Below are positions 48,141 to 64,000 of a stretch of DNA of 64,000 nt, piece by piece. A program made the translations under genes and the position numbers. Positions within the stretch are counted from its first letter, which is position 1; each line of letters starts with the position of its first letter. Origin of the DNA: Dictyoglomus thermophilum H-6-12 (lineage in GTDB: Bacteria; Dictyoglomota; Dictyoglomia; Dictyoglomales; Dictyoglomaceae); assembly GCF_000020965.1 (NCBI RefSeq), contig NC_011297.1:1364001-1428000 (forward strand), given 5' to 3'. Below the pieces are notes generated by a model, which was given only the letters and a program-made list of their open reading frames with translations, ran no database searches and was not told the DNA's origin.

Positions 48141-49469
48141 TTACTTTAGTCCTTCTAAAACAGCATTTATAGCCGCCTCAAACTTAGGTCTTAATGCCTT
48201 TATAGATTTTGCAGGATTTGCCACATCAATCTGATCCATCAATTCAGTAAATCCTGGAATTCCAGCAGCAGGATTTATAACAGTCCTTGTTGACGCATCT
48301 ATTAAAATATCATAAACTTCTTTGCCACCTACCCTCTCAATCTGGTCCTTAACAATAAGCTCTTTCTCCTTATCTGTTGGCATCAACATCCATAAAAGAT
48401 ATAGGGCAGCAAGTTCTGGATCCTTAGAGGAAGAAGCTATAGCCCAAGCAGAATCATCACCTTCATCGGCACTCTTCTTATTAGTATCTGGCCCCTTAGG
48501 GAATGGAACCATACCTAATTTTTTACCAAGGGCATTTCTCATAGTAGAAATATCCCAAGGTCCCCAATAATCCATACAGGTAATACCCTTTTGAAATCTT
48601 CCTTGAGGATCTGTCCACCAGTCAGCAGGTCTCATCTTATATTTTGCGTCCATCTCATACACAGCCTGAAATGCTTTATAGGCCTTAGGATTATCAAGAT
48701 TAAACACTGGTCTTCCACCAATATATTTTATAGGCATAACATCGTTGGTCCATAAGAATGGAGCATATGTCCTCCAACTTGCATAAGCATATTGGTCTAT
48801 CTTTCCATCACCATTGGTATCTTGTGTAAGTTGCTTGCCTAAGTTGAAAAAGGTCTCCCAGGTCCACTTCCCTTGCTTATATAACTCAAGAGGATCAGGA
48901 AGTCCTGCCATCTCAAATTTCTCTTTATTGTAATAAAGTATGTAGGGAAATACATTATCATTGTAAATGTTTGTTACTGCATAAATCTGCCCTCTCCAAG
49001 TAAAGTAATCAAGAATAGGTTTTCTAAAACCTACAACATTATAGAGATCTTTATTCTTAAAATCAATATATCTATCTAATGGAAGAAGCATCTTCTTCAT
49101 CATCCAAGTAGGTTTTTGTCTACTATCAATGTAAACAATATCACAACCAGAACCAGAAAGTATTGCTGCCGTTTGTTTCTCGACTTTGGTTTCCCAAGTC
49201 ACATAAACTATCTTAACTTTTGCTCCTGTAATCTTTTCAAACTCTTCCCTTGCTTGTTTTGGTGATCTCACACCAGGAATATTACTTTTTTCTTCCTCGG
49301 GCCAATGTTGCCAAACGTAAATTGTTTTACCTCTATACTTTTGAGTATCAATATTTAATACATAGTTTCCAACCTTATACTGATATACCCTCTGCCCAAA
49401 TCCAGGGACAAAAGTTAAGAAAGCAAAAAACATTAAGAAAAACAGAACAAAAACCTTTCTTTTATTCAT
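48141..49469 (-). CDS. Sugar ABC transporter substrate-binding protein (copy 1)
   Basis: This 442-residue periplasmic protein has a signal peptide (MNKRKVFVLFFLMFF to VPGFGQ, about 1-26) and the family-1 binding-protein fold. The hinge segment TNIYNDNVFPYILYYNKEKF and the TGKW-like KQGKWTWETF near residue 185 are typical. A DTNGDGKIDQY stretch near 198 looks like a calcium-binding loop. It is a close paralogue of the partial gene at 62891, about 83 percent identical over 343 residues by hand count. It lies 107 bases behind the GH5 gene and has GGGGAGGG before its ATG, and a terminator behind. Confidence 0.93.
   Translation of the reverse strand: MNKRKVFVLFFLMFFAFLTFVPGFGQRVYQYKVGNYVLNIDTQKYRGKTIYVWQHWPEEEKSNIPGVRSPKQAREEFEKITGAKVKIVYVTWETKVEKQTAAILSGSGCDIVYIDSRQKPTWMMKKMLLPLDRYIDFKNKDLYNVVGFRKPILDYFTWRGQIYAVTNIYNDNVFPYILYYNKEKFEMAGLPDPLELYKQGKWTWETFFNLGKQLTQDTNGDGKIDQYAYASWRTYAPFLWTNDVMPIKYIGGRPVFNLDNPKAYKAFQAVYEMDAKYKMRPADWWTDPQGRFQKGITCMDYWGPWDISTMRNALGKKLGMVPFPKGPDTNKKSADEGDDSAWAIASSSKDPELAALYLLWMLMPTDKEKELIVKDQIERVGGKEVYDILIDASTRTVINPAAGIPGFTELMDQIDVANPAKSIKALRPKFEAAINAVLEGLK
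48781..48998. repeat. Direct repeat, copy 1 (sugar-binding protein genes)
   Basis: This 218-base block matches 63531-63748 with three mismatches by hand comparison, far closer than flanking parts of the same genes. A second identical block, 49045-49117, matches 63795-63867. All lie at the same offset of 14,750 bases. Confidence 0.92.
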
Positions 49470-49576
49470 TTAGAGCCCTCCCCTCTAAAAAATTATTTAG
49501 AATCAGACTTTCTCTCCTTCTTTCTGGAATGTAAATTTCCTTATCCCCCCTTTCTTTATAAACCTTATAAGGCATT

Positions 49577-51214
49577 TCAAATCACCTTAAGAGTGGTCTC
49601 AATAATCTCTCCCGAAAGAAATTCAAAAATTATTTTGAGACTATCTATATTCTGATATTTTGAGAGATTCTCAAATACATGCTTCTTTATTACCACCTGA
49701 GAATCAATGACGGAAAAATCATCCCATCCTCTTAGATATGGTGTCCAAGAATCCCTTATAGGTCTTCCTGTTTTTGCATCAAAGACTTTAATTGCACAAA
49801 GTCTAGCCCCATTAAAAGCTATAATAAATTTTAAGTCCGTAGGAACTCCACTTATGATGTTAAAGGGTTTATCAAGAAGTACAGGATCTTTATACTGCAC
49901 TATATCCAATGGGTAATCCACACTTTCTGTAAACTTAAAGTTTAATCTGGCCACTACCCCATAACTTTGAGGAGTTAAAATATTCTTTAAGAATTCCTTC
50001 TTAAGTATTAACCTGTTTGGAGATTCTTGTACATAATCTTTACCCTGGATTAAACCCTTTCCATTCAAGTATATTCCTACAAAAGAGTTACCGTTTAACT
50101 CTATCTCTACACTCTCATCCTTCACCTTATTCTCTTTGATATACAAAACTCCTGGATTTAAGAAGGCATTCCTTTTACCATAGGAAGCATTAATAATAAT
50201 CTTTATAGCCTGTTCATCTCGCCAAACTCTGTTTCGACGATCATAATTTTCTCCATTATCCCAGTAAAATGTAGCCATCTTATACTTCTTAGCAACCCTA
50301 ATAAGATTATCAAAATAGTACCATTCGGCTGGCTTATTTCCATTAAATAGCCCATACTCTCCAATAATAAAGGCATAGGAAGGAAATTTTTCTCTTACAA
50401 TCCTTATGTCCTTGTCCATCTGCTCTTTATCTCTATCAGTTCCCCAACTCTTTCTTCCCCACCAATTAGCAGTAAAGTCCCAAGGAGAATAATAATGCAC
50501 ACCTATTATTATGTTAGGGTCTTTTGGAGGTACAAAATACTTTTCTGCCTTATAAGTGTCGGTCCATAATGGAGGAACAACCACAAGTCTTCTGTCATTA
50601 TATCCTCCAGAATTTCTTATAACCCTCAAAATCCTCTCATTTACCTCATTCTGCAGAGCACCTGCCTCTTGCTCCGAAAATCCTTCATATGTAGGTTCAT
50701 TAATGATTTCAAAAATCAATTTCTCTGAATAATCCTTAAATCTATCTGCTATCTGAAGCCATAATTTTTCAAGCTTATTTATAGTTCCTTCTTTATCCAA
50801 CTTCATTTCTTTGCTTAACCATCTCCAAGAGTCATGATGCACATTGATTATCACATATAAGTCTTTTTTTAGAGCCATATTAACTACCTCTTCTACTCTA
50901 TCCATCCATTCTTTATCAACTTTATAATCTGGTGCAGGTCCCATGTGATCAACCCAAGTAACAGGAATCCTTACACTCCTAAATCCCATTCTCTTTATAT
51001 CCTCAAAAACATACTCTTCAGTTTTTGGATTCCCCCAAGATGTTTCATCAGGTATAGCATCTAACGCATTACCAAGATTCCAGCCTGGATCCATATCCTC
51101 AACCGCTTTATAGGGATCTACATAATTAAAATTCCCCTTATAAGAAGTAGCATATATTTTTCCCGATATAAGACCGAGAAAAATTAAAAGAGATAATATA
51201 AAAATTTCTCTCAT
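49577..51214 (-). CDS. Secreted GH5 endoglucanase with X2-like module
   Basis: This 545-residue exported enzyme has a signal peptide (about 1-22) and a GH5 TIM barrel (about 30-340). The acid/base is E173 in INEP and the nucleophile E286 in IIGEYG; GWNLGNALD near residue 44 and NVHHDSW near 124 are typical cellulase motifs. An Ig-like X2 module (about 350-440) and a further beta-sandwich region (about 441-545) follow. It probably cuts beta-1,4-glucans or mannans outside the cytoplasm. I chose the ATG at 51214 behind GAGGTG. It shares the operon with sugar permeases and a carbohydrate-binding protein. Confidence 0.92.
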   Translation of the reverse strand: MREIFILSLLIFLGLISGKIYATSYKGNFNYVDPYKAVEDMDPGWNLGNALDAIPDETSWGNPKTEEYVFEDIKRMGFRSVRIPVTWVDHMGPAPDYKVDKEWMDRVEEVVNMALKKDLYVIINVHHDSWRWLSKEMKLDKEGTINKLEKLWLQIADRFKDYSEKLIFEIINEPTYEGFSEQEAGALQNEVNERILRVIRNSGGYNDRRLVVVPPLWTDTYKAEKYFVPPKDPNIIIGVHYYSPWDFTANWWGRKSWGTDRDKEQMDKDIRIVREKFPSYAFIIGEYGLFNGNKPAEWYYFDNLIRVAKKYKMATFYWDNGENYDRRNRVWRDEQAIKIIINASYGKRNAFLNPGVLYIKENKVKDESVEIELNGNSFVGIYLNGKGLIQGKDYVQESPNRLILKKEFLKNILTPQSYGVVARLNFKFTESVDYPLDIVQYKDPVLLDKPFNIISGVPTDLKFIIAFNGARLCAIKVFDAKTGRPIRDSWTPYLRGWDDFSVIDSQVVIKKHVFENLSKYQNIDSLKIIFEFLSGEIIETTLKVI

Positions 51215-51224
51215 CTCATCCACC

Positions 51225-51806
51225 TCAATCTTTGACAAACTTAACCTCATCTACATAGAGGGTTGTATTTCCTTCGGGTACTCCTGTCACCTCAATACTC
51301 ATACCCCAAATTCTTTTCTTATCTACAGTAACAAAGGATTTTAGAGGAACAGAAATCTTTGTCCATTGAGTAGGTACACCACCAGTTATGGTATACTTTT
51401 CAGAATAAAATTCTTTACCATCCTTTTGAGCTGGAGCCTCAACAATGGTTACCAAAAGATTGTAATCACCAGCCTTCTCAGCCCTTATATAGAACTCCAG
51501 AGCCTTATAATTAGAAAGGTCTAAAATCTTATCCTTAGCATTAAAATTCCACTTAGCAAAATTTATACCCATTCCAGCCCACCAACTATTCCATACAAAA
51601 TTTATTTTCAAACACTTCTTACCAGAATAAGCTACACCTTCTACCTCTTCTACTTTACAGCCCTCTGGAGCAACCCAATACCCTAAGGCTGAAAGATTAG
51701 TATTCTCCGATTCCCCATCATAAATCAAAATTTCCTTTACACTTTGAGAAAAAGAAATACCCAAAAAGAGGAATAAAATCAAACCCATTAAGATTACCTT
51801 TTTCAT
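51225..51806 (-). CDS. Secreted carbohydrate-binding-like protein
   Basis: This 193-residue protein is a signal peptide (about 1-20, MKKVILMGLILFLFLG to SFSQS) followed by one beta-sandwich domain. The layout with DGESENTN near the start, NFVWNSWWAGMGINF near 68-82, LEFYIRAEKAGDYNLLV and a closing TTLYVDEVKFV resembles CBM-type jelly-roll domains (such as CBM11 or CIA30-like). No catalytic domain is present. It lies 10 bases before the GH5 gene and may help that enzyme hold its substrate. The ATG at 51806 follows AGGAGGTG. Confidence 0.8.
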   Translation of the reverse strand: MKKVILMGLILFLFLGISFSQSVKEILIYDGESENTNLSALGYWVAPEGCKVEEVEGVAYSGKKCLKINFVWNSWWAGMGINFAKWNFNAKDKILDLSNYKALEFYIRAEKAGDYNLLVTIVEAPAQKDGKEFYSEKYTITGGVPTQWTKISVPLKSFVTVDKKRIWGMSIEVTGVPEGNTTLYVDEVKFVKD

Positions 51807-51831
51807 AAAGACACCTCCTAAAGAAAAATTT

Positions 51832-52794
51832 TTATCCAACAATTCCTGTCCTCTCTACACTTTCTACAAAGAATCTTTGCGTGAAAATATAAAAGATCAA
51901 CATTGGTAAAATAACAAGAATAGCACCAGCATATTGAGGAGGAAGTATTAATAAGGGATCAAAAATCTGCGTTCCCCCAGTTATTATAGCCCTGATATTT
52001 GCTAAATTAAGAGATAAAGTATATTTATCAAAATCTCCAATAAATACCGATGGTTCAAAAACATCATTCCAATGCCATACTAAAGAGAATAAGAAAACTG
52101 TTACTATGGCAGGAACAGAGTTAGGAATAAAAATTCTTAAATAAGTTTGAAATGGTGAAGCGCCATCTACATAAGCTGCCTCCTCTAATTCCTTAGACAT
52201 ACCTCTAAAGAACTGCCTGAATATGTAGATAAAAAGTCCACTCCTCAGACCACCCCCTAATATGGTTGGAAGAATAATAGGATAGTAAGTATTTAAAAGA
52301 TTAAAAGGCTCTCCTCTTATAAGCTTAAATATTCCTAAAATATCAAATTTTTGATAAAAAACATAAAGAGGAATTAGCAAAACTTGGGGTGGAACTATTA
52401 AAGTAAATAATATTAATGCAAAAATGAACTCTCTTTCTTTAAACTTAAACCTTGCAAGTCCATATCCAATCATAGAGCAAGAAATAACATTAAATATTGC
52501 AGGAATTATAGAAACAATTAAGCTATTTTTAAAAGCATTAAAATAATTGAGAGAAACAAAAGCCTTTTTGAAATTTTCAATAGTCGGATGTTTAGGTATC
52601 CACACAACTGTAGGATCAATAAGATCTTCTCTACTCTTTATAGCAGTACTTAGCATAAATAGTACAGGTCTCAAAAGTACATAAGAAAGTCCAATAAAGA
52701 GAATTATTTTAACAAGAGTAATAAACCATTGGTATATCTTATTTTTAAATATTAAAATTATATCTTCTTTTGTATAATTCTTGTATTTAATCAT
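51832..52794 (-). CDS. Sugar ABC transporter permease, MalG type (pair B)
   Basis: This 320-residue protein has six predicted transmembrane helices and the EAA loop EEAAYVDGASPFQTYLRIFIP near residue 205, which docks to the ATPase. The order and the C-terminal SVERTGIVG match the MalG/CUT1 side of sugar importers. It follows the MalF-type partner by 14 bases. The ATPase is not encoded nearby. Confidence 0.93.
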   Translation of the reverse strand: MIKYKNYTKEDIILIFKNKIYQWFITLVKIILFIGLSYVLLRPVLFMLSTAIKSREDLIDPTVVWIPKHPTIENFKKAFVSLNYFNAFKNSLIVSIIPAIFNVISCSMIGYGLARFKFKEREFIFALILFTLIVPPQVLLIPLYVFYQKFDILGIFKLIRGEPFNLLNTYYPIILPTILGGGLRSGLFIYIFRQFFRGMSKELEEAAYVDGASPFQTYLRIFIPNSVPAIVTVFLFSLVWHWNDVFEPSVFIGDFDKYTLSLNLANIRAIITGGTQIFDPLLILPPQYAGAILVILPMLIFYIFTQRFFVESVERTGIVG

Positions 52795-52808
52795 TAAAAC
52801 TGCCTCCC

Positions 52809-53726
52809 TTATTCATTCATATAGAAAACCCGCTTTGAAATTACCCACATAAGCAACAAAAGAACTAAACCAATGATAATAAAGTAAAGCCAAGCTATTG
52901 CGGCACTATAACCATGGTTTAGTTGCTTAAATGCAACCTCAAGAATATACCTAAGAACATCATTACTATAATCAGTAAAGGAATCAATCACAGTATAAAT
53001 CACGTTAACTAAAACAATCGGCGAGATCATTGGCAAAGTAACCTTCCAAAAGGTTTCCCATGTTGTGGCTCCTTCCACACGAGCCACTTCGTAAAAAGAA
53101 GAAGGAATAGACTGCAAACCAGCAAGAAATATTAAAATCTGTACTCCTGATTTCCATATAATTTCATATATTCGATCAATGGCATTGATTATTGGCATTA
53201 AGAAAGGTATGTTTCCCGTTATTCTTATCAAGAAAAGCCTAAAATCTATGCCCCTTAAGAAAGGAGAGTTAGAAAGAGCCATTCCAGCTTGAGCCCCCAT
53301 TGCGAACTGTTCTATAGAATTACTCTCAAGCACATAAAGTAAAGCACCAGACATTACTACTACAGGCAAAAAGAATATGGCCCTCACTAAAGTTCTCCCT
53401 CTGAATTTTTGGTTTAAAAGAATAGCTACAAAAAGAGAAAACATTATTATTAAAGGGATATTAACAAGCATGTTTCCTACTTCGGTGGTTAAATATCTAA
53501 TAAAATTGGGATCCTCCCTAAGAGCCTTTATAAAATTTCTAAAACCTACAAAGATCAAATTATACCCTTCAGGGGAGACATCTAATTGACTAAAAGCAAA
53601 AATAATAGATTGAATAAAAGGCCAAGCAAAAAATATTAAAAACCCTAAAAGCCAAGGATACACAAACAGCCTTCCAACTCTTGCCTGCCTTTGAGATAAA
53701 GTCTTCAGTCTTTTTCTATTTTTCAT
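52809..53726 (-). CDS. Sugar ABC transporter permease, MalF type (pair B)
   Basis: This 305-residue permease has six predicted helices and an EAA loop YEVARVEGATTWETFWKVTLP near residue 215. It contains an extra stretch between helices 3 and 4 (about 145-185). I chose the ATG at 53726; an upstream TTG at 53735 lies too close to GGAGG. It starts 16 bases after the DUF5696-like gene, so pair B is expressed together with the upstream half of the operon. Confidence 0.92.
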   Translation of the reverse strand: MKNRKRLKTLSQRQARVGRLFVYPWLLGFLIFFAWPFIQSIIFAFSQLDVSPEGYNLIFVGFRNFIKALREDPNFIRYLTTEVGNMLVNIPLIIMFSLFVAILLNQKFRGRTLVRAIFFLPVVVMSGALLYVLESNSIEQFAMGAQAGMALSNSPFLRGIDFRLFLIRITGNIPFLMPIINAIDRIYEIIWKSGVQILIFLAGLQSIPSSFYEVARVEGATTWETFWKVTLPMISPIVLVNVIYTVIDSFTDYSNDVLRYILEVAFKQLNHGYSAAIAWLYFIIIGLVLLLLMWVISKRVFYMNE

Positions 53727-53742
53727 AACTCTCAATGCCTCC

Positions 53743-55935
53743 CTAATTCTTTCCTAAAAAGAAAACAAAATCTTCTCCCTTTATTATCTTTCCTTTATAC
53801 TTAAACGGTTTGGAGGTGTAGTTAACAACTACTTCTGTGTCATTCTCATACTGTACCTTGTATACTCCATTACTTATCTTTGTATGAGTCCTTATAGGCA
53901 CATCATAAATATTTATGTATAAATCTCTTAACAAGTTGTATTCTTTTACCGCTTGATCAATCCAATCCTTATAATTAGAACTAACCATTTCATTGAAGAT
54001 ACTTTTCTTAAAATATGAAGAATCTTTAAAAATCAATGCATAATAAGGTAAAGCTCCATACTCTACCATTTTTAGAAACTCCATTCTCTGACTTTCCCTC
54101 AAATTTCCCGGTCTTCCACTATATGGAACATATCCATGAAGTAAAATCTGAAGGATAGGCACACTTTCTGACTCGATAGCAAAGTTGCTTGAATCAAGAG
54201 GAGCCTCCAAAATTAGCGAACTATAGGGTAAAACATAAAAATTACCTGAGCTAAAGATAAAATTAAACTTATTTATATGATTACTTAAACTTTCTTTCCA
54301 CAAAGATGCAACTTCTTCTCTTGAAAGAAGTTTAGATCTTTTATTCTGAGATGATATATAATCTCCCATTTTCTCTATTAAGACATTTCTAAGATTAAAC
54401 CTCTCCAGATCTCTCAAAAAATTATTAAGGTATACAGGAACCCTTTCGGGTAATACTGTAAACCAAGGATCATAATCTCTGTTCTTCTTTTTTATGACAG
54501 GATCCCATTTATACATAAAAGCAAGTCCATTGTTTAGATATCTATTAGCATCACGAGATGGAGAAAAGCCATTACCTGCGTTATGTACCTCTATAACTTC
54601 AGCAGTTAAAATTAAGTTAATATTATTACTGTTACAATATTCAATTAATTTTCTAAATCCCCCATTTCCACCAATTTTAGATTCTAACCTTATCCCATTC
54701 GTTATCTTATTCATATATCCACCAGACTGATAACCTTTAAGTATTAGGTTTATATTTTTAATTCCTCTACTTCTAAACTCATCAAGTATTTTGATAGTTT
54801 CATCAAAGGTAGTAAGAGGAAACAAATCTACTACAGGAACACCTGCTTTCGTAGTTCTTATATTTATGCTGTTGATAATTACAAGATTAAAAGGCACTTC
54901 GGAAACTTTAGTAGCTTTTTTATAAAGATAACCATTCTTTACAAGGTAATCTCTATAAGATCTGATCATAGATGAGTAATCAACATCTTTTCCTGTAAAT
55001 AATAGATAGTTTATTACTATATCCTTTTTAATCGTATATGGAGAAAACTTATTAACCAGAACATCTACAACTTCTCCAGCCTGTCCTGTAGAGGCCTCTC
55101 TTTCATAAAGTAAAAATTTATGAATCCTCCTATACTCAAAAACAGGATAAATCCTGAAATATGAGGTAGAATTACCCGCCATATAACAAGCTATATTTGA
55201 GTCAAAATCTCCTGATTCTATTATCCCCAAGATCCCAAGATCATTTCTTTTAACACCAAATATGGGAAGCCTAATTCCTTCAGTTTTAGGAGGCATATCG
55301 TAAAGAGGCATACCAAAATCATAACCATATACAGGAAGTTCAAAACCCCTTTCATTACCAGCCTTATGATCAAATCTTACAAGAGCTCCAGATCCGTCAG
55401 GCACTATAAGATATCCATTGTCTTTTTTACTTCCATAGATAAAGTACGGAAGAATCCATATTCTGTTTATTTTAAGATCTCCTTCTTCTTTTATAGAATC
55501 AATAGGTACTCTTACCTTAAAGCCTGTTTCAGTCAGTATAAATTCAATAGAAATGCTAACACCTTGGGTAGAAAATTCATAATCTATCCTAATACCATCC
55601 CTAATATTTTTATACTTAAAATTCCCTCTCATAACTCCAAGGGCATAGGTATTGTAAAGAGAGACTCTTGCTTCATCATCAGCCATTTCAAGAACTAAGT
55701 GGGAAGGAATAGTGAATTTTGTTATGCCCATTGAAAAATCTCCTTCCCAATCTTTTGGGAACTGGTTAAATATTTTTCCTGTAGCCTTATCTTTAATGGC
55801 CACTTCTGCTGTTTTTTCGTTAAACAACATAACGAATTTATTATTTTCTGCTATAACTTTATATTCCCCGTTTTGCCCATAGAGAGGAATAACTAAAACT
55901 ACGATAGAAATCAAAATCAGCAATTTTATACGCAT
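53743..55935 (-). CDS. DUF5696-like exported protein
   Basis: This 730-residue protein has a signal peptide (MRIKLLILISIVVL to PLYGQ, about 1-21), a beta-rich N-terminal half (about 25-290) and an alpha/beta part (about 295-640) resembling a glycoside-hydrolase barrel, with strands VPFNLVIIN, KNINLILKGYQSGG and NINLILTAEVIEVH. From memory this matches DUF5696, a family that accompanies YIP1 proteins and sugar permeases in Paenibacillus-type loci. A glycosidase role is plausible, but catalytic residues cannot be assigned. The ATG at 55935 follows GAGGTGG and overlaps nothing; the previous gene ends inside its leader. Confidence 0.72.
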   Translation of the reverse strand: MRIKLLILISIVVLVIPLYGQNGEYKVIAENNKFVMLFNEKTAEVAIKDKATGKIFNQFPKDWEGDFSMGITKFTIPSHLVLEMADDEARVSLYNTYALGVMRGNFKYKNIRDGIRIDYEFSTQGVSISIEFILTETGFKVRVPIDSIKEEGDLKINRIWILPYFIYGSKKDNGYLIVPDGSGALVRFDHKAGNERGFELPVYGYDFGMPLYDMPPKTEGIRLPIFGVKRNDLGILGIIESGDFDSNIACYMAGNSTSYFRIYPVFEYRRIHKFLLYEREASTGQAGEVVDVLVNKFSPYTIKKDIVINYLLFTGKDVDYSSMIRSYRDYLVKNGYLYKKATKVSEVPFNLVIINSINIRTTKAGVPVVDLFPLTTFDETIKILDEFRSRGIKNINLILKGYQSGGYMNKITNGIRLESKIGGNGGFRKLIEYCNSNNINLILTAEVIEVHNAGNGFSPSRDANRYLNNGLAFMYKWDPVIKKKNRDYDPWFTVLPERVPVYLNNFLRDLERFNLRNVLIEKMGDYISSQNKRSKLLSREEVASLWKESLSNHINKFNFIFSSGNFYVLPYSSLILEAPLDSSNFAIESESVPILQILLHGYVPYSGRPGNLRESQRMEFLKMVEYGALPYYALIFKDSSYFKKSIFNEMVSSNYKDWIDQAVKEYNLLRDLYINIYDVPIRTHTKISNGVYKVQYENDTEVVVNYTSKPFKYKGKIIKGEDFVFFLGKN

Positions 55936-55948
55936 CTTTCCACCTCTT

Positions 55949-58015
55949 TTAACCAATCATATACTTAATTTCTAAGTACACCATGTAGATAAACCTCACA
56001 AACTGCTGAAAAGTTGCAAAGAACACCATTCCTATAAACATAGCAAAAATTATACCTGCGATAGTTATAAGGGAAGTTCCAAAAACCTTACTCAAAGAGT
56101 ATTCCTGAAGTTCCATCATACCCGCAAAAAGTATCCATAAAACCCATATACTTCCGATAGTATCGAAAAAGTAATAAAAAGCAGCTTCCTCCAAAGTAAA
56201 TACATGACTTAACAAAGTTTGAGGTAGATAAATAAGCACCAATGGAAATAGACTATAAACTGTCATTATAAATATTTCCCTCATTTTTGCCTTTCCATCC
56301 ATTATGGTGGTAACTGCCCAGTTTATAGTCACCCAAGCAAGAATAGGAAGCAAAACTCTCCCTACTTCAAGAAGTATGTTCAACTCCTCCGGCCTATAGG
56401 GATTAAAATGAAAGGCAGTCATAATTCTTCTGATAATAAATGCAAGGATGATAAAAATCAGGAGGATCAATGATGCCTTAAAAGATTCTTTTCTTCTCTT
56501 AAGTTCATAAAATCCATCAAAAGGATGCAGTATCACATAAAAAACAAACATTACGGTATCAAACAATGGATGCTTTTGAGCATAACTCCTATAATAAAAG
56601 GCTATTTTTCCTCCTAAAAATCTCTTTACCAAGTAAATGATTAATAAAAATAATATGAATAGGTTCATTATCTTAGAAAAATTTCTTCTCATGTATTCTA
56701 TTCTGAAACCCCTAAGAGCCTTAGAATATCCTTCAGGATAAAAGCCAAGTCTGAAATTCACCATAGCTTCCTTATATTTTTCCTCATGCAAGAAGTTTTT
56801 TCCAAGCCCTATATAAGCAAGATCATAATTAGTATCCATTTTTACAACATCTTTCCAAACTTCTGCTGCCTTTCCATAATATCCGTCTACATAAAAGGAA
56901 TTTGCTTTAAGAACAAGACTTCCAAAATAAGTAGGTTTAAACACAGTTATAGTACCCTTATTCTCATCAAGGACAAACACTTTCCCATCATAAAGATCTA
57001 TCGCTGTAGGAAATTGAAAAGTTCCCTTTTGATTCCCTATATCCCCTGACACAAATAGAAAATCTCCAAGATTGTTATATACAAAGAACCTTCCTACTCT
57101 ACCATCAAGAACATAAAGGTTTTCTGAATCATCTACAGCGATATCTGCAATCTCCCCTCTCACCGTAAAACCAAAATAAAGATCCCCATACATATTGCCA
57201 GTGCGACCTTCCTGCTTTATTATGTTATCTCCAAGAGCATTTAACCTTTTAATCTGGTCATACCAAGCTCTTACACATCCATAAATAAACCCATCTTTAT
57301 CCACAGTCACATTCCTATATTCAATGGGTATAAAAAGCATCAATTGAGATCTTTGTTTTCTCGTAAGAACCCTTCTCCAGAAAAGTTCTATAGGATTTAC
57401 CTCAACCCTATTACTACCAAAAAATCTCTCAAAATTTCCCTTTGGACTAAACTGAATTAAACCTTCTACAACATTTTCAGCTACCACATATACTCTTCCC
57501 AAATTATCTACCGCAACCTTCTTTGGAATATATTCAAAATTAACCTTTATCACATCTCCAACAGGCTTTCCTATGATCATATAAAGACTTCTGTCCTTAT
57601 TCAAAACTACGATTCTAGAATTTTTAGAGTCAGCAATATATAGCCTCCCATCACGGGTAACAAAAAGCCCTGTTGGAGCTTTAAAAAGATCCTTCTCTCC
57701 ATTATTTATAAAGCCATCAATAATCTCTTTCAATTTATAATCTTTACCTATCACTACAATTCTGTTATTACCAGTATCTGCTACATAAATATCGCCATTA
57801 CTTTTATCTATAAAAAGATCTTCAGGGGCTGAGAAGGATAGATTAGGCTTTATAGTTTCACCTGAAATTATAAGCTCGGGCTCAAATCCTGGAAGAGAAG
57901 GTACAGGCCTCCTTCTTTCATTATAGATATATGTGTAATAGGGAATTCCCGCAAAAGCAATATTTATCAAAAACAATATAAATAGAAGTTTTGCAATTAT
58001 CCTTGCCCTTCTCAT
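55949..58015 (-). CDS. NHL-repeat, TPR and YIP1-domain membrane protein
   Basis: This 688-residue protein has an N-terminal signal or anchor (about 5-23). At least five NHL-type repeats (about 55-350) follow, such as APEDLFIDKSNGDIYVAD and APTGLFVTRDGRLYIADS, forming a beta-propeller outside the membrane. A TPR-like helical stretch (about 360-430) leads to a membrane helix (about 447-466) and a C-terminal YIP1-type domain with about five helices (about 480-688). It lies between the two permease pairs. It could sense or gather glycan at the membrane, or help assemble the transporter; the role is inferred. Confidence 0.78.
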   Translation of the reverse strand: MRRARIIAKLLFILFLINIAFAGIPYYTYIYNERRRPVPSLPGFEPELIISGETIKPNLSFSAPEDLFIDKSNGDIYVADTGNNRIVVIGKDYKLKEIIDGFINNGEKDLFKAPTGLFVTRDGRLYIADSKNSRIVVLNKDRSLYMIIGKPVGDVIKVNFEYIPKKVAVDNLGRVYVVAENVVEGLIQFSPKGNFERFFGSNRVEVNPIELFWRRVLTRKQRSQLMLFIPIEYRNVTVDKDGFIYGCVRAWYDQIKRLNALGDNIIKQEGRTGNMYGDLYFGFTVRGEIADIAVDDSENLYVLDGRVGRFFVYNNLGDFLFVSGDIGNQKGTFQFPTAIDLYDGKVFVLDENKGTITVFKPTYFGSLVLKANSFYVDGYYGKAAEVWKDVVKMDTNYDLAYIGLGKNFLHEEKYKEAMVNFRLGFYPEGYSKALRGFRIEYMRRNFSKIMNLFILFLLIIYLVKRFLGGKIAFYYRSYAQKHPLFDTVMFVFYVILHPFDGFYELKRRKESFKASLILLIFIILAFIIRRIMTAFHFNPYRPEELNILLEVGRVLLPILAWVTINWAVTTIMDGKAKMREIFIMTVYSLFPLVLIYLPQTLLSHVFTLEEAAFYYFFDTIGSIWVLWILFAGMMELQEYSLSKVFGTSLITIAGIIFAMFIGMVFFATFQQFVRFIYMVYLEIKYMIG

Positions 58016-58020
58016 ACTCT

Positions 58021-58869
58021 TTACTCCTTAATACCAGCAGACTTCATAGTCTCCACCACATTGCTTTGGGTCAAAATAAAAATTATTAATGAAGGAAGCA
58101 TCATAAGAATTGCAGCAGCTGCCGCAGCACCAGCCCTCACAAATCCTCCCTGTTGTATATAAGTCAACGCTAAAGAAAATGGCTTCATGGCTTCATTATG
58201 TAAATACAAGGCAGGAGTATAAGTATCATTCCAAGTATCTCTAAAGGCAAAAAGAATAAGAGTAAGCCAAGCAGGCTTTACATTTGGCATAACTACATAC
58301 CACCATATCTTAAACTCATTAGCACCATCTATCCTTGCAGACTCTATATACGAATCAGGAATCTGTTCCATAAATTGCTTCATCAAAAATAATCCTAAAG
58401 TTGCACCTATATAAGGCAGAATTAGAGAAAAATAAGTATCTAAAAGCCTTAGCTTAGCCATAATTATAAATCTCGGTATGTTAGTTACATATCCCGAAAA
58501 CATCAAAGAAAAGACAACTAAGTTAAATAAGAACCTACTACCTGGAAATCTATGTTTGGCTAAGGGATATGCTGCCATAGATGCTATCATCACATGTCCA
58601 AAGGTACTTACAAGACTAATGAATATACTATTAAAAAGATACCTGGAAAAAGGAACAAAGGAATTACTCATTAAATAAAATAAGTCAGTAAAATTCTTAA
58701 GAGTTGGTCTCCTCACAAAAAGCCTTGGAGGAAATAAGAAAAGTTCGTCAAGAGGCTTGAAAGCATTCATAATAGAATAAACTAGGGGTAAAGCCATAAA
58801 TATTGCTACTATTGTTAACACAATTATTACAATAATATTCCCCCAAATAGATCTGTTTATTCTCTTCAT
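58021..58869 (-). CDS. Sugar ABC transporter permease, MalG type (pair A)
   Basis: This 282-residue permease has six predicted helices and the EAA loop IESARIDGANEFKIWWYVVMP near residue 177. The C terminus SNVVETMKSAGIKE is typical of CUT1 MalG-side subunits. It follows its MalF-type partner by 23 bases and ends 5 bases before the NHL-YIP1 gene. Confidence 0.93.
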   Translation of the reverse strand: MKRINRSIWGNIIVIIVLTIVAIFMALPLVYSIMNAFKPLDELFLFPPRLFVRRPTLKNFTDLFYLMSNSFVPFSRYLFNSIFISLVSTFGHVMIASMAAYPLAKHRFPGSRFLFNLVVFSLMFSGYVTNIPRFIIMAKLRLLDTYFSLILPYIGATLGLFLMKQFMEQIPDSYIESARIDGANEFKIWWYVVMPNVKPAWLTLILFAFRDTWNDTYTPALYLHNEAMKPFSLALTYIQQGGFVRAGAAAAAAILMMLPSLIIFILTQSNVVETMKSAGIKE

Positions 58870-58892
58870 ATTACAAACAAAACCTCCTCATA

Positions 58893-59792
58893 TCAGTCAG
58901 GTCTTATTATTCTTCTGACTCCTTGGTTAATACCTACCGTAATTAGGAACAAAATTACAGCGATAGCAGAAGCATATCCCATTTCATACCTTATACTTCC
59001 ATAATCCCACATGTGAAGCACGATAGTATGAGCAGAATAAAGAGGACTTGGAAAACCTATAAGTTGTGCTGAAATATCTGCCACTGCAAAAGATGAAGTA
59101 ACTTGCATTATAGCTCCAAAAATAAGCTGAGGTTTCATGGAAGGAAGAGTAATATACCAAAGTTCTTGCCATCTATTTCTTATGCCATCTACAGCAGCAG
59201 CCTCATATAAAGACCTATCTATGGTCTGAAACCCAGCTATAAAAGCAAGAAAGCTTGTGCCAAGACTCATCCACAATTGTACTACCATCAAAACATATAA
59301 ATTAATTCTAGAATCTTGAAGCCAATAAATTGGTTCTTTTATTATCCCCAGATTCATCAAAAATCCGTTTAAAAGTCCATAAACATCTCCTGAAAAGATG
59401 TATGTCCAGATAAAAAATATCGCAGAAGATAGAGCAGGAGCATAATACAAAAGAGTTAAAACAGATCTAATCTTAGGTGGAAGTTCATTTATCAACCATG
59501 CAAAAAAGAGACATGCAAAATAACTTAAAGGTCCCGTTATAAGGGCAAACTTAAAAGTATTCTGAAGGGCAATAAGAAATACATCGTCCTCTAAGAATAA
59601 TCTTTTGTAGTTATTCCAACCAACAAATCTTGGTGCTTGGATAATATTGTAATTTGTAAAACTCAAAATAATTCCTACTATTACAGGAATGACAACAAAA
59701 GTAAAAAACAAGATAAAATATGGTAAAAGCAAAAAGTAAGATTCTTTATTCTTTTTTACCTCTTTCCATAGATTTCTAATTTTCTCCTTCAT
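58893..59792 (-). CDS. Sugar ABC transporter permease, MalF type (pair A)
   Basis: This 299-residue permease has six predicted helices and the EAA loop YEAAAVDGIRNRWQELWYITLP near residue 195. I chose the ATG at 59792, which has GGGGGAAGG upstream; another ATG at 59816 overlaps the previous stop but lacks a ribosome site. It directly follows the large binding protein, its probable partner. Confidence 0.92.
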   Translation of the reverse strand: MKEKIRNLWKEVKKNKESYFLLLPYFILFFTFVVIPVIVGIILSFTNYNIIQAPRFVGWNNYKRLFLEDDVFLIALQNTFKFALITGPLSYFACLFFAWLINELPPKIRSVLTLLYYAPALSSAIFFIWTYIFSGDVYGLLNGFLMNLGIIKEPIYWLQDSRINLYVLMVVQLWMSLGTSFLAFIAGFQTIDRSLYEAAAVDGIRNRWQELWYITLPSMKPQLIFGAIMQVTSSFAVADISAQLIGFPSPLYSAHTIVLHMWDYGSIRYEMGYASAIAVILFLITVGINQGVRRIIRPD

Positions 59793-59812
59793 TTTATACC
59801 TTCCCCCAAAAA

Positions 59813-62701
59813 TCATTCTTTTGCAAGTTCTAAACCAAATTCTTCTCTCTTCCTATCAATTTCTTTATTAATCTCTCTAGTATATTTCTCTATAGCTTCT
59901 CTTGGAATTTCACCAAGCATAACTACTTCTCTGAAAGCATTATCTAAATGCCTCGATACATAATAACTTCCAGGAACATTAGGAATCTCCTTTAGATATC
60001 TCCATTGGGTTGAAAGTATTTTGTAATCTGAAGAAGGCCAGGGCAGATAACTCATAGCTTCTATGTTAGCGGTATTATACCTTGCACCAGCCCCCAAAAC
60101 CGCCTCAAGCTCTCTGCCAAATCTTGCCTGAACATCTGTTGAAACCCACCATTTTACAAACTCCCAAGCCTCTTTCAACTTTTTTGTCTGAGAAAAGATT
60201 AAGATAGCATTACCCCCACCAGCTACACTTCTATCAATAGAGCCATCACTCTTCCTTCTTCCTGGAACAGGAGCAATCCCCCAAAGCCCACTTATCTCAG
60301 GAGCAGCAACTTTAAATTGGTTATACATAGTATAAGGTCCAATTCCTAAAGGCATCTCTCCTGTTCTAAAACGGTTGAAGAAATCATAATAAAGGGGAAT
60401 TCCATAAAGTACATATAAATTGGTCCATTCTTTGAAAGCTGTTACCCCTTCTTCATTATTAAGGATGCACCTTTTGCCATCTTCAGTATAGTATCTTCCA
60501 CCCCTTTGAAGAAGAAGCATATTGAATATGTCAAAGCTTGTACCACCCGTCCCAGCTGCAAACTGCAGATTATAACTTTGTAATTTTGCAATAGTCTTAT
60601 ATAATTCATCCCAAGTATTCGGAACCTCAATATTCAAACGGCCTAATATATCAGCTCTGTAAAACATTATAGGAAAATCTTGAGTCATAGGTAAACCATA
60701 AACCTTTCCTCCAAAGCTATAAGGGACAAGAGCATAAGGGGCAAAACACTTCTTCACATTCTCAAAGCCAGGCAACTTTGAAATATCCACAAGAGCTCCT
60801 CTTATACCATAATCTACAGCAAGTCCCCTCGGTACATTTAAAGCTACATCAGGAGGATTTTCCCTTGAGGCCACAGAAAAAAGTAAAGCTGCTTCGGTAG
60901 TTATAATGTTTAGGTTAACCCCTATTCCTGTTTTAGGAGTAAAATCAGTATCTATAAGCATTTTTAAAGTTTCTGCCTGATCTCTACCCATCTGAACCCA
61001 TACATTTATTGCCTTATCCTTCTCATATACTGTACCTATCATGTTGTAGTCTTCTAAGAAAGAATAGAAAAACTTTTTTACTCCATCCCAAATTCCTTCA
61101 AAAATATTTGGATTTACTCTAGGAGACCTTGCATCAGGAGAAGCCACGATTATATAATCAATGTCTAAAGGTTGTTCTCTAATGGCAAGTACCCACGCAG
61201 AAAGGGCAGATAGGTTATCTCTATATCGTTGTAATCTCTGAGCAATAGTCTCTGGCTCCTTAGCCATTCCCTCAAGTTGAATAGCAACTCTCTCAAGAGT
61301 TGCTGCTTCACTAACTTTCTCCCCTCCAATAATCTTTAATTTTTCAGCATTTTCCTTCAATATCTTTGCATTTCTCTCTAAAGTAGGAATAAGATCTGGA
61401 ATACTTTGCTCTAAAAGATAATCTCTGTAGGGATCAGGATTAGGAGAAGTGATCATTACAATCTTAGTATACAATTGAGACAAATCTATAGAGCATTGTA
61501 GAATATTTCTTATAACTTCTGCTATGCTCTCATAAGTAACTTTAAGCCTAAGAGTATGTTCACCCTTTGTTAAATAAAAAAGATATTCGTCCTTCCCATT
61601 TCCTAGATACTTAAACTGCCATTTAGTATCATATTTGAATTTTATATTCCTTACTTCCTTAAAAGGAATCCTTCCATCTATATAAAGAGTCCTCTCAGAA
61701 GGTATTCCAGGATTTGCATTTTGCCTAAATTTAAAACCAATTTTATAAAAACCATCCTCTGGAACGGTAAATTTCCACTCAATCCACTGTCCAGAAGATC
61801 GCCAATTATACCCTCCTATTATGTTCAAAAGTTTATTTCGAGAACTATAAGGTTCATTAAGAGGATTACTCATATCGTATATGGGATAGAGAGTGGGCTC
61901 AGACTTTAAATAGGCTTTCTCTCCCTGAATCTTCACAATTATATTTTTTACACTCCTTTTTAGATCTTCTTTGTTGTAAGTACTAATTATTTCACTATAA
62001 GACGGAATATCTTTGAGATTGAAAATCTTAATATAATCTATAACCATTGGCTCTTTTACTGAAATAAATCTCAAAGTATGCTTCCCTTTTGTAAAATAGA
62101 AAAGAAAAGGTTCAGAATATAAGCCTTCAGCATCATCGATAACCTTTTCAACCCACATGGGAGACTCTATCTGTAATGGTCTTAACTCATTTCCTCTATT
62201 ATCTTTTAATGGATCTCCAGCATCCTTCCATATTCTTTCAAATCTTACAATCCTTACTTCGTTAAAAGGCCTTTTGCCATCAATCATGATTTCTCTTTCT
62301 ATAGCTGAGTTTTTCCCAGTTATGGGATAGTATTTCACAGCAATGTTGTACAATCCCTCTTCTTCGATATTAAAGGTCCATTCTACAAAACCATTTTCCC
62401 CTGTATATAAGACTGGATGCTTATCCTGAGTTAAATTTGTAAGTTTTTTAAGATCCATATCTTTAGAAAAATTAGAGTAATTTATTGCATTAATAATTAA
62501 AGTTAGATTTGGTCTTTTCTTGTCATAGAATCTTGAGATATAAGTCTCATATGAATTCTCCTTACTTATAAGTTCAAAGATAACATTCAAATTAACCAGA
62601 GAATTTTGAGCGAAGTTTAGGTTTGTAATTAATAACAATATAAAGAGTAATAGAGAAATAAACCTTAAAACTAGTTTCAAAATTTTTTCAAAAATTAACA
62701 C
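59813..62701 (-). CDS. Large sugar-binding protein with two N-terminal carbohydrate-binding modules
   Basis: This 962-residue protein has an N-terminal signal or anchor (about 8-32). Two related beta-sandwich modules follow (about 60-230 and 255-400), each with a G-x-Y-x-I strand, an RxxYIDGR-type loop and a closing TKGxHTLR. A helical linker spans about 430-530. The C-terminal part (about 555-960) is a typical sugar ABC binding protein (GGTSFDIFNML, APVPGRRKSDGS). The start is GTG at 62701 behind GGAGG. It heads the glycan operon. The fusion suggests capture of long glycans before transport. Confidence 0.88.
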   Translation of the reverse strand: MLIFEKILKLVLRFISLLLFILLLITNLNFAQNSLVNLNVIFELISKENSYETYISRFYDKKRPNLTLIINAINYSNFSKDMDLKKLTNLTQDKHPVLYTGENGFVEWTFNIEEEGLYNIAVKYYPITGKNSAIEREIMIDGKRPFNEVRIVRFERIWKDAGDPLKDNRGNELRPLQIESPMWVEKVIDDAEGLYSEPFLFYFTKGKHTLRFISVKEPMVIDYIKIFNLKDIPSYSEIISTYNKEDLKRSVKNIIVKIQGEKAYLKSEPTLYPIYDMSNPLNEPYSSRNKLLNIIGGYNWRSSGQWIEWKFTVPEDGFYKIGFKFRQNANPGIPSERTLYIDGRIPFKEVRNIKFKYDTKWQFKYLGNGKDEYLFYLTKGEHTLRLKVTYESIAEVIRNILQCSIDLSQLYTKIVMITSPNPDPYRDYLLEQSIPDLIPTLERNAKILKENAEKLKIIGGEKVSEAATLERVAIQLEGMAKEPETIAQRLQRYRDNLSALSAWVLAIREQPLDIDYIIVASPDARSPRVNPNIFEGIWDGVKKFFYSFLEDYNMIGTVYEKDKAINVWVQMGRDQAETLKMLIDTDFTPKTGIGVNLNIITTEAALLFSVASRENPPDVALNVPRGLAVDYGIRGALVDISKLPGFENVKKCFAPYALVPYSFGGKVYGLPMTQDFPIMFYRADILGRLNIEVPNTWDELYKTIAKLQSYNLQFAAGTGGTSFDIFNMLLLQRGGRYYTEDGKRCILNNEEGVTAFKEWTNLYVLYGIPLYYDFFNRFRTGEMPLGIGPYTMYNQFKVAAPEISGLWGIAPVPGRRKSDGSIDRSVAGGGNAILIFSQTKKLKEAWEFVKWWVSTDVQARFGRELEAVLGAGARYNTANIEAMSYLPWPSSDYKILSTQWRYLKEIPNVPGSYYVSRHLDNAFREVVMLGEIPREAIEKYTREINKEIDRKREEFGLELAKE

Positions 62702-62779
62702 TTAAACAACCTCCAATTCTAATTTGATGCAATTTTAAAGAAAAAGTACATAAAAAGATAATAAAATTCCATTATTTTT

Positions 62780-62791
62780 AAAACCAGTTTC
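62780..62791. promoter_or_regulatory. Possible LacI-family operator upstream of the glycan operon
   Basis: The sequence AAAACCAGTTTC (minus GAAACTGGTTTT) resembles LacI/PurR-type sites with AAAC and GTTT arms but has CA/TG rather than CG at the centre. On the minus strand it falls between TTGGAA and TTTAAA, 17 bases apart, a possible promoter about 70 bases upstream of the operon's first gene. Confidence 0.35.
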
Positions 62792-62847
62792 ATAGCTTTT
62801 TCCAATCTTAACTCCCATTCAATTCATTTTTAACACAATTTTAATAT

Positions 62848-62885
62848 AAAAATAGGGGAAAGGCAATAACCTTTCCCCTATTTTT
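62848..62885 (-). terminator. Terminator of the second sugar-binding protein gene
   Basis: Perfect 16-base arms (62848-62863, 62870-62885) surround a 6-base loop, 5 bases after the stop codon, with a leftward T run. It separates this gene from the large glycan operon downstream, which therefore needs its own promoter. Confidence 0.9.
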
Positions 62886-62890
62886 TTCAA

Positions 62891-64000
62891 TTATTTAAGA
62901 CCCTCTAAAATTGCATCAATAGCAGCTTGGAATTTAGGCTTTAATGCCTTTATAGATTTCGCAGGATTTGCCACATCAATCTGGTTAATCAAATCCCAGA
63001 AGCCAGGAATACCAGATATTGGATCTATTTGAGCTCTAGTGGCAGCATCCATTAGGATATCATAAATTTCTTTTCCGCCTACCCTTTCTATCTGCGATTT
63101 TACAATTATTTCTTTTTCTTTATCAGTGGGTGTCAACATCCACAAAAGATACAAAGCAGCAAGTTCTGGATCCTTAGAGGAAGAAGCTATAGCCCAAGCA
63201 CCGTCATCGGCCATATCTGCACTCTTCTTCTTGCTATCAGGACCTTTAGGGAATGGGACTATCCCTAATTTTTTACCAAGAGCATTTCTCATCCCAGAAA
63301 GCTCCCAAGGTCCCCAATAATCCATACAGGTAATACCTTTTTGGAATCTCCCTTGAGGATCATTCCACCAATCAGAAGGTCTCATCTTATATTTTGCATC
63401 CATCTCATACACAGCCTGAAATGCTTTATAGGCTTTCGGATCATCCATAGCAAAAACAGGCTTACCACCTATATACTTAACCACCTGCACATCATTAGTA
63501 TACAAGAAGGGCTGTACTACCGCCCAAGTAGCATAAGCATATTGGTCTATCTTTCCATCACCATTGGTATCTTGTGTAAGTTGCTTGCCTAAGTTGAAAA
63601 AGGTCTCCCAGGTCCACTTCCCTTGCTTATATAACTCGAGAGGATCAGGAAGTCCTGCCATCTCAAATTTCTCTTTGTTGTAATAAAGTATGTAGGGAAA
63701 TACATTATCATTGTAAATGTTTGTTACCGCATAAATCTGCCCTCTCCATTTATAAAAAGATAACGTACTTTCTCTGAAACCAACTGTTTCCCAAAGATCT
63801 TTATTCTTAAAATCAATATATCTATCTAATGGAAGAAGCATCTTCTTCATCATCCAAGTAGGTTTTTCTCCTGCTCCTATGTATACTACGTCAGCTCCAG
63901 AACCAGAAAGAATAGCTGCGCTCAATTTCGGTCTATAATTTTCCCAAGTAGTATAAACTATTTTTACCTTTGCTCCTGTAATCTTTTCAAACTCTTCTCT
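62891..64000 (-). CDS. Sugar ABC transporter substrate-binding protein (copy 2), partial
   Basis: These 369 residues are the C-terminal part of a periplasmic sugar-binding protein; the frame stays open to the window edge, so an ATG near 63925 is internal and not the start. The visible N-terminal part (EFEKITGAKVKIVYTTWE) aligns with copy 1 at 48141. The two are colinear without gaps, with long near-identical stretches and differences grouped at positions such as AYATWAVVQPFLYTNDVQVV. The DTNGDGKIDQY loop is kept. It ends in a strong terminator. Confidence 0.92.
   Translation of the reverse strand, partial: REEFEKITGAKVKIVYTTWENYRPKLSAAILSGSGADVVYIGAGEKPTWMMKKMLLPLDRYIDFKNKDLWETVGFRESTLSFYKWRGQIYAVTNIYNDNVFPYILYYNKEKFEMAGLPDPLELYKQGKWTWETFFNLGKQLTQDTNGDGKIDQYAYATWAVVQPFLYTNDVQVVKYIGGKPVFAMDDPKAYKAFQAVYEMDAKYKMRPSDWWNDPQGRFQKGITCMDYWGPWELSGMRNALGKKLGIVPFPKGPDSKKKSADMADDGAWAIASSSKDPELAALYLLWMLTPTDKEKEIIVKSQIERVGGKEIYDILMDAATRAQIDPISGIPGFWDLINQIDVANPAKSIKALKPKFQAAIDAILEGLK
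63531..63748. repeat. Direct repeat, copy 2 (sugar-binding protein genes)
   Basis: This is the partner of 48781-48998, differing at three of 218 positions by hand comparison and in the same orientation. Together with 63795-63867 it marks the parts of the gene most recently made alike. Confidence 0.92.

Follow-up and report, generated by a model that had tools for sequence, protein, structure and literature searches.

The stretch of DNA analysed here (the window, 64,000 nucleotides) raises the question of whether two ABC permease pairs, set around an NHL-TPR-YIP1 membrane protein and a DUF5696 protein in one minus-strand gene cluster, belong to a single glycan import machine or to separate transporters. 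A preliminary description of this cluster, made from the sequence alone, listed a binding protein (SBP), two permease pairs, an NHL-TPR-YIP1 protein, a DUF5696-like exoprotein, a carbohydrate-binding exoprotein and a GH5 enzyme on the minus strand from 62701 to 49577 and proposed that they form one specialised glycan capture and import machine. The genome is a single contig of 1,959,987 bases. All of the listed genes were found where the description had placed them (Table 1), and most identifications held in Pfam searches: the two permease pairs are four BPD_transp_1 proteins, NHL and Yip1 (PF04893, 49.3 bits vs a cut-off of 28.6) are both over their cut-offs with the TPR seen as matches to solved TPR structures, the GH5 enzyme is confirmed together with its CBM_X2 module, and the DUF5696 link scores 588 bits against the PF18952 curated cut-off of 25.6. 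The carbohydrate-binding exoprotein held only in part, its CBM30 match reaching 23.8 bits vs the Pfam cut-off of 27. The seven-gene core, referred to below as the cassette, runs from 62701 to 51832, with the CBM30-like and GH5 genes next.

Table 1. Features of the operon and its flanks, in window coordinates.
Feature	Position	Strand	Evidence
Small CUT1-type SBP, copy 1	62891..64000	-	SBP_bac_1 E 7.6e-22
Core gene 1: large SBP, 962 aa	59813..62701	-	SBP_bac_1 E 1.3e-25
Core gene 2: PermA_N, MalF/UgpA-like permease A	58893..59816	-	BPD_transp_1 E 2.9e-10; EAA loop YEAAAVDG
Core gene 3: PermA_C, MalG/UgpE-like permease A	58021..58869	-	BPD_transp_1 E 1.7e-10; EAA loop IESARIDGA
Core gene 4: NHL-TPR-YIP1 membrane protein	55949..58015	-	NHL E 2.7e-20; Yip1 E 6.7e-13
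Core gene 5: DUF5696, predicted exported	53743..55956	-	PF18952 E 2.3e-176
Core gene 6: PermB_N, N-type permease B	52809..53735	-	BPD_transp_1 E 5.2e-9; EAA loop YEVARVEGA
Core gene 7: PermB_C, C-type permease B	51832..52794	-	BPD_transp_1 E 1.2e-18; EAA loop EEAAYVDGA
Cargo: CBM30-like protein, predicted exported, 205 aa	51225..51842	-	CBM30 E 4.9e-5, sub-threshold
Cargo: GH5 endoglucanase with CBM_X2/Ig module, predicted exported	49577..51250	-	Cellulase E 2.6e-52
Small SBP, copy 2	48141..49469	-	SBP_bac_1 E 1.6e-22

The tight packing of these genes was also borne out, the actual spacing from 62701 to 49577 ranging from a 26-base overlap to a 23-base gap rather than the 0-25 bases first given. 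The large SBP and PermA_N overlap by 4 bases, PermA_N and PermA_C are 23 bases apart and PermA_C and YIP1 5 bases apart; YIP1 and DUF5696 overlap by 8 bases if the latter starts at the TTG at 55956, the distance being 13 with a later start near 55935. Gaps of 7 and 14 bases separate DUF5696 from PermB_N and PermB_N from PermB_C, and overlaps of 11 and, with the first ATG, 26 bases join PermB_C to the CBM30-like gene and the latter to GH5. Promoter and terminator scans gave no signals above shuffled background and were uninformative on the transcript limits. Two near-identical small SBP genes flank the operon on both sides; the full gene of copy 1 reaches genome position 1428213 and thus overshoots the window by 213 bases (ORF 891-2213 in the extended stretch L121), and an AraC-type regulator is encoded close by, likewise outside the window. 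Since a related genome (G003, L038) also has small SBPs on both cassette flanks, this bracketing is not a recent assembly artefact. An SBP gene was found upstream in 17 of 31 cassettes scanned, and extra small SBPs also occur downstream of cassettes.

The DUF5696 family was traced with profiles, since a single-protein query gave just one near relative, and core genes around its copies were detected by six-frame profile search. DUF5696 exceeded the cut-off in 5 of 7 genomes of the window's phylum (Dictyoglomota), in 19 of 386 genomes spread across Bacteria and, within family f53, in 41 of its 59 genomes; this family we take to be, probably, the Paenibacillaceae, in part from a named Paenibacillus cellulosilyticus cassette. 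Ten of the 386 diverse genomes had strong DUF5696 (E < 1e-100), and exactly these ten had strong YIP1; G021, G168 and G267 had weaker, clear DUF5696 matches without YIP1. A reverse search from the TPR-YIP1 region retrieved exactly the same 41 f53 genomes and none of the other 18, and a large SBP search returned these 41 again with closely similar copy numbers, so that 18 genomes lack all three. DUF5696 lay directly downstream on the same strand at every one of the 108 YIP1 places in f53, and YIP1 directly upstream at 108 of 109 DUF5696 places, the exception being a 159-base fragment match. These counts are not independent events because the genomes are related; many paralogous cassettes, up to about eleven copies per genome, add further loci. 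No relative was found in viral contigs. The preliminary description had named a lack of conserved co-occurrence of YIP1 and DUF5696 with such permeases as grounds for refutation; the co-occurrence proved strict. Its idea of a specialised machine is thus supported by conservation, while the single machine, the capture and the import all remain inferred.

Gene order was examined with profiles of each window protein around 40-odd DUF5696 copies, the stretches covered measuring at most 20 kb. Forty-eight complete cassettes, 43 from f53 and 5 from Dictyoglomota, all carried the seven genes in one order, on one strand and with zero insertions, spanning 10.3-11.7 kb; from one matched region to the next the median distance was 12 to 66 bases. 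When a tree was built for each of the seven proteins from these 48 cassettes, patristic-distance correlations were 0.89-0.97, and 0.89-0.93 between pair A and pair B. In ten pairs of cassettes from the same genome, the seven genes mostly ranked their mate similarly and distantly, and a wholesale exchange of genes among paralogous cassettes is therefore not apparent; in one such pair (L107/L118) pair A was closer than the remaining genes. The parts, their co-occurrence, their order and their co-inheritance show that the seven genes are a conserved unit. In G112 the cassette is divided between two contigs, the break interrupting the YIP1 gene.

A variant core was observed in G327 (L042:4075-12779) and G052 (L043:6905-15607), where YIP1 and DUF5696 are followed by a 233-aa unknown protein, an HlyD-type adaptor, a MacB-like protein and pair B. 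These loci are without pair A and the large SBP and mix import-type permeases with efflux-type parts. Pair A can thus be dispensed with in some genomes, as YIP1, DUF5696 and pair B occur there without it.

The NHL-TPR-YIP1 protein is composed of an N-terminal signal or anchor segment, about 425 residues of NHL-TPR, a linking TM and the multi-TM Yip1 domain with five TMs, the TM-like segments lying at 449-467, 516-534, 546-564, 580-598, 616-634 and 649-667. As a signal-like segment and the NHL-TPR region precede the six TM-like segments, the propeller and TPR should be outside the membrane, an orientation that is inferred. In 26 of the 48 cassettes, NHL-TPR and YIP1 are encoded by two neighbouring genes, and in the other 22 by one; this fusion or fission suggests, by inference, a physical partnership or complex. 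The protein is a putative scaffold, for which there are no physical data. A cytoplasmic signalling domain was not seen by Pfam in the YIP1 or DUF5696 protein of the window. AlphaFold models of these two proteins, made with two input sequences only, had a pLDDT of 36 and were too poor to use.

Both permease pairs in the window meet the CUT1 criteria of an SBP_bac_1 SBP and two BPD_transp_1 permeases with an EAA loop. The EAA loops are kept in all four permeases, that of PermA_N reading mostly EAG, not EAA, and being intact in the alignment of the 48 cassettes; both pairs should therefore couple to an ATPase, although this coupling is inferred. The motif SGVQILIFLAGLQ is conserved in PermB_N. 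No MalK-type ATPase is encoded in the window operon, and the genome has a single OB_MalK ATPase, outside it. In 8 of 31 cassettes scanned, the upstream neighbour encodes a MalK-type ATPase, and the ATPase adjacent to the P. cellulosilyticus cassette is annotated ugpC. In the large SBP, a signal segment is followed by two beta-sandwich modules that are CBM35-like, then by a helical spacer of coiled-coil type and finally by the C-terminal SBP. Its profile matches were the CBM35 region of 5x7g (a cycloisomaltooligosaccharide glucanotransferase), coiled-coil designs and SBPs, the nearest being Lin1841 (5ysb, E 6.7e-36). Only one of the two N-terminal modules was matched, and the CBM35-like nature of both is partly inferred.

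A profile built from 34 DUF5696 members matched DagB-type 3,6-anhydro-D-galactosidases (5opq, 8rzg, 8rzk; E 2e-23), GH129 NagBb (5wzn; E 1e-20) and, weakly, GH101, the GH129/DagB matches spanning E 1.8e-23 to 9.8e-21. What had been described as a DUF5696-like exoprotein is thereby refined to a protein with a distant GH129/DagB-type glycosidase fold. DagB is built of a beta-sandwich, a TIM barrel and an Ig-like domain, and has just one catalytic residue in common with NagBb, D435 of NagBb being D486 of DagB (PMC5698469); the second catalytic acid of NagBb we take to be E478. The window DUF5696 has K529 at the catalytic Asp position and S569 at the second acid position. Among 63 cassette copies, the former is D in 33 and otherwise S, G, K, Y, N, E, R, H, M or W, and the latter is mostly S, D or T with E in a minority. 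Neither catalytic acid is thus conserved in the 63 copies, with the caveat that the alignment may be one residue off: an acid lies within one residue of the nucleophile position in most of them, including E528 in the window. The sole invariant acid (E or D) in the C-terminal half, E632, lies beyond the mapped catalytic positions. Given the possible shift to E528, loss of catalysis in the cassette DUF5696 is likely but not proven, resting on alignment alone. Because the catalytic Asp position is not conserved, the protein is probably in the main a glycan-handling pseudo-glycosidase, both its glycan binding and its inactivity being inferred. Some copies may nonetheless be active, since the nucleophile position is Asp in about half of those in cassettes.

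Three DUF5696 members outside cassettes (L044:8998-10902, L045:1531-3453 and L046:8746-10683) have Glu at the E478 position and a nearby Asp. With acids thus retained near both GH129 catalytic positions, they are possibly real glycosidases.

The enzymes flanking the cassettes vary, GH26 being commonest, followed by GH113, GH32, GH10, GH35, GH30, GH2, GH38 and others. Since they differ between cassettes, GH5 and the CBM30-like protein are lineage-specific cargo, and their inclusion in the unit as first described is corrected: they are adjacent to the conserved core and outside it. The CBM30-like protein is kept in five Dictyoglomota cassettes. The nearest solved relative of the window GH5 is a 'cellulose hydrolase' (4yzp, E 2.5e-130), and bacterial endoglucanases are nearest. 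The GH5/CBM neighbours suggest that the Dictyoglomus cassette takes beta-1,4-glucan-type oligosaccharides, an inference without uptake data, and as the cargo differs in other hosts, the substrate there probably differs too. With its AraC regulator, permeases and GH5, the window cluster meets the criteria of a Gram-positive polysaccharide utilisation locus.

Complete named cassettes were found in P. cellulosilyticus and Butyrivibrio fibrisolvens. The latter (L124:4969-16321) is on plasmid pNP243 from cattle rumen, with a two-component system and GH43 adjoining. The P. cellulosilyticus plasmid cassette (L123:3786-25409) has several LLM flavin-dependent (luciferase-like) oxidoreductases and two more SBPs as neighbours, a setting that suggests a substrate other than plain glycan. 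On general grounds this could be a sulfonated sugar.

We favour, by a modest margin, the reading that the cassette encodes an ABC importer of CUT1 type and composite build, next to which enzymes can be exchanged; its physical assembly, substrate and transport direction are inferred. The large SBP would capture an oligo- or polysaccharide through its CBM35-like modules and feed permease pair A. The exported GH129-like DUF5696, with its degenerate active site, would bind or thread the glycan near permease pair B, and NHL-TPR-YIP1, anchored by YIP1 with propeller and TPR outside the membrane, may join both halves, a shared MalK-type ATPase powering both pairs. In a bolder version, which we hold to be less likely than not, an NHL-TPR-YIP1 scaffold links two ABC permease heterodimers into a single membrane assembly, fed by the CBM-bearing SBP and the pseudo-glycosidase; this would be a dual-channel glycan importer of a previously undescribed type. 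In the absence of physical or functional data, tight co-inheritance also fits two separate importers of one substrate.

The main rival is accordingly phrased in those terms: two ordinary, physically independent CUT1 importers (large SBP with pair A, small SBP with pair B) could take up different products of one polysaccharide and share a transcript with an enzyme and a membrane protein of accessory function. This is possible, as both pairs form complete heterodimers that have EAA loops, the flanking small SBPs (upstream in 17 of 31, and also downstream) could supply the second SBP, and pair B occurs without pair A in G052 and G327. Ordinary neighbouring importers recombine and are lost independently. 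Against independence stand the 108 paired YIP1-DUF5696 places, the position of YIP1 and DUF5696 between the permease pairs in 48 of 48 cassettes and the lack of swaps among paralogous cassettes.

It is also possible that the catalytic residues of DUF5696 have shifted and that it still acts as a glycosidase, trimming substrate beside the transporter of an ordinary utilisation locus. Its GH129/DagB-like fold, the Asp in 33 of 63 copies or an acid within one residue in most (E528 in the window) and the nearly invariant E632 speak for this, and catalytic residues do move in this clan, given the one residue that NagBb and DagB have in common (PMC5698469). However, many copies have K, S, G, Y, N, W, R or H at the nucleophile position, and S, D or T predominate at the second position, where an active family would be expected to retain both acids, which the far non-cassette members L044-L046 do approach with their Glu and nearby Asp. 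In a third reading, NHL-TPR-YIP1 and DUF5696 would tell a regulator whether the transporter is occupied, and one of the permease pairs would function in signalling; it draws on the AraC regulator beside the window and the two-component genes beside the Butyrivibrio cassette. We consider a mainly sensory cassette very unlikely, for the regulators are outside the conserved core, EAA loops are kept in both pairs and YIP1 and DUF5696 show no cytoplasmic signalling domain.

In the literature searched, we found no mention of DUF5696, nothing relevant on YIP1 or NHL combined with Paenibacillus and transport, and no paper describing the cassette. The D. turgidum genome paper leaves YIP1 unmentioned and terms the carbohydrate genes randomly distributed. 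The cassette thus recurs in f53, Dictyoglomota and rumen Butyrivibrio without a name in that literature. If its parts do form one composite importer, the CUT1 picture of one permease pair and an SBP changes, DUF5696 and a group of bacterial YIP1 proteins gain a role, and the neighbouring enzymes could predict the glycan of each paralogous cassette.

Compared with known systems, the cassette resembles CUT1 importers of the MalFGK2/MalE, UgpBAEC and MsmEFGK type in its SBP_bac_1 SBP, its MalF/MalG-like heterodimer with EAA loops and, by inference only, a shared MalK/UgpC-type ATPase. It differs from them in holding two permease pairs in one fixed unit (48 of 48), be they one complex or two ordinary transporters, in the fusion of its SBP to CBM35-like modules and a coiled coil, and in its obligatory NHL-TPR-YIP1 and DUF5696 partners. 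By profile, DUF5696 is related over the N-terminal beta-sandwich and TIM barrel to the GH129 alpha-N-acetylgalactosaminidase NagBb and the GH129-like DagB (ZGAL_3152, an alpha-1,3-(3,6-anhydro)-D-galactosidase), but the cassette protein lacks a conserved D435/D486 Asp, is predicted to be exported and is tied to ABC permeases. As in Gram-positive polysaccharide utilisation loci, a regulator, an ABC importer and glycosidases are clustered, whereas here the transporter core is invariant and unusual and it is the enzymes that are exchanged between cassettes.
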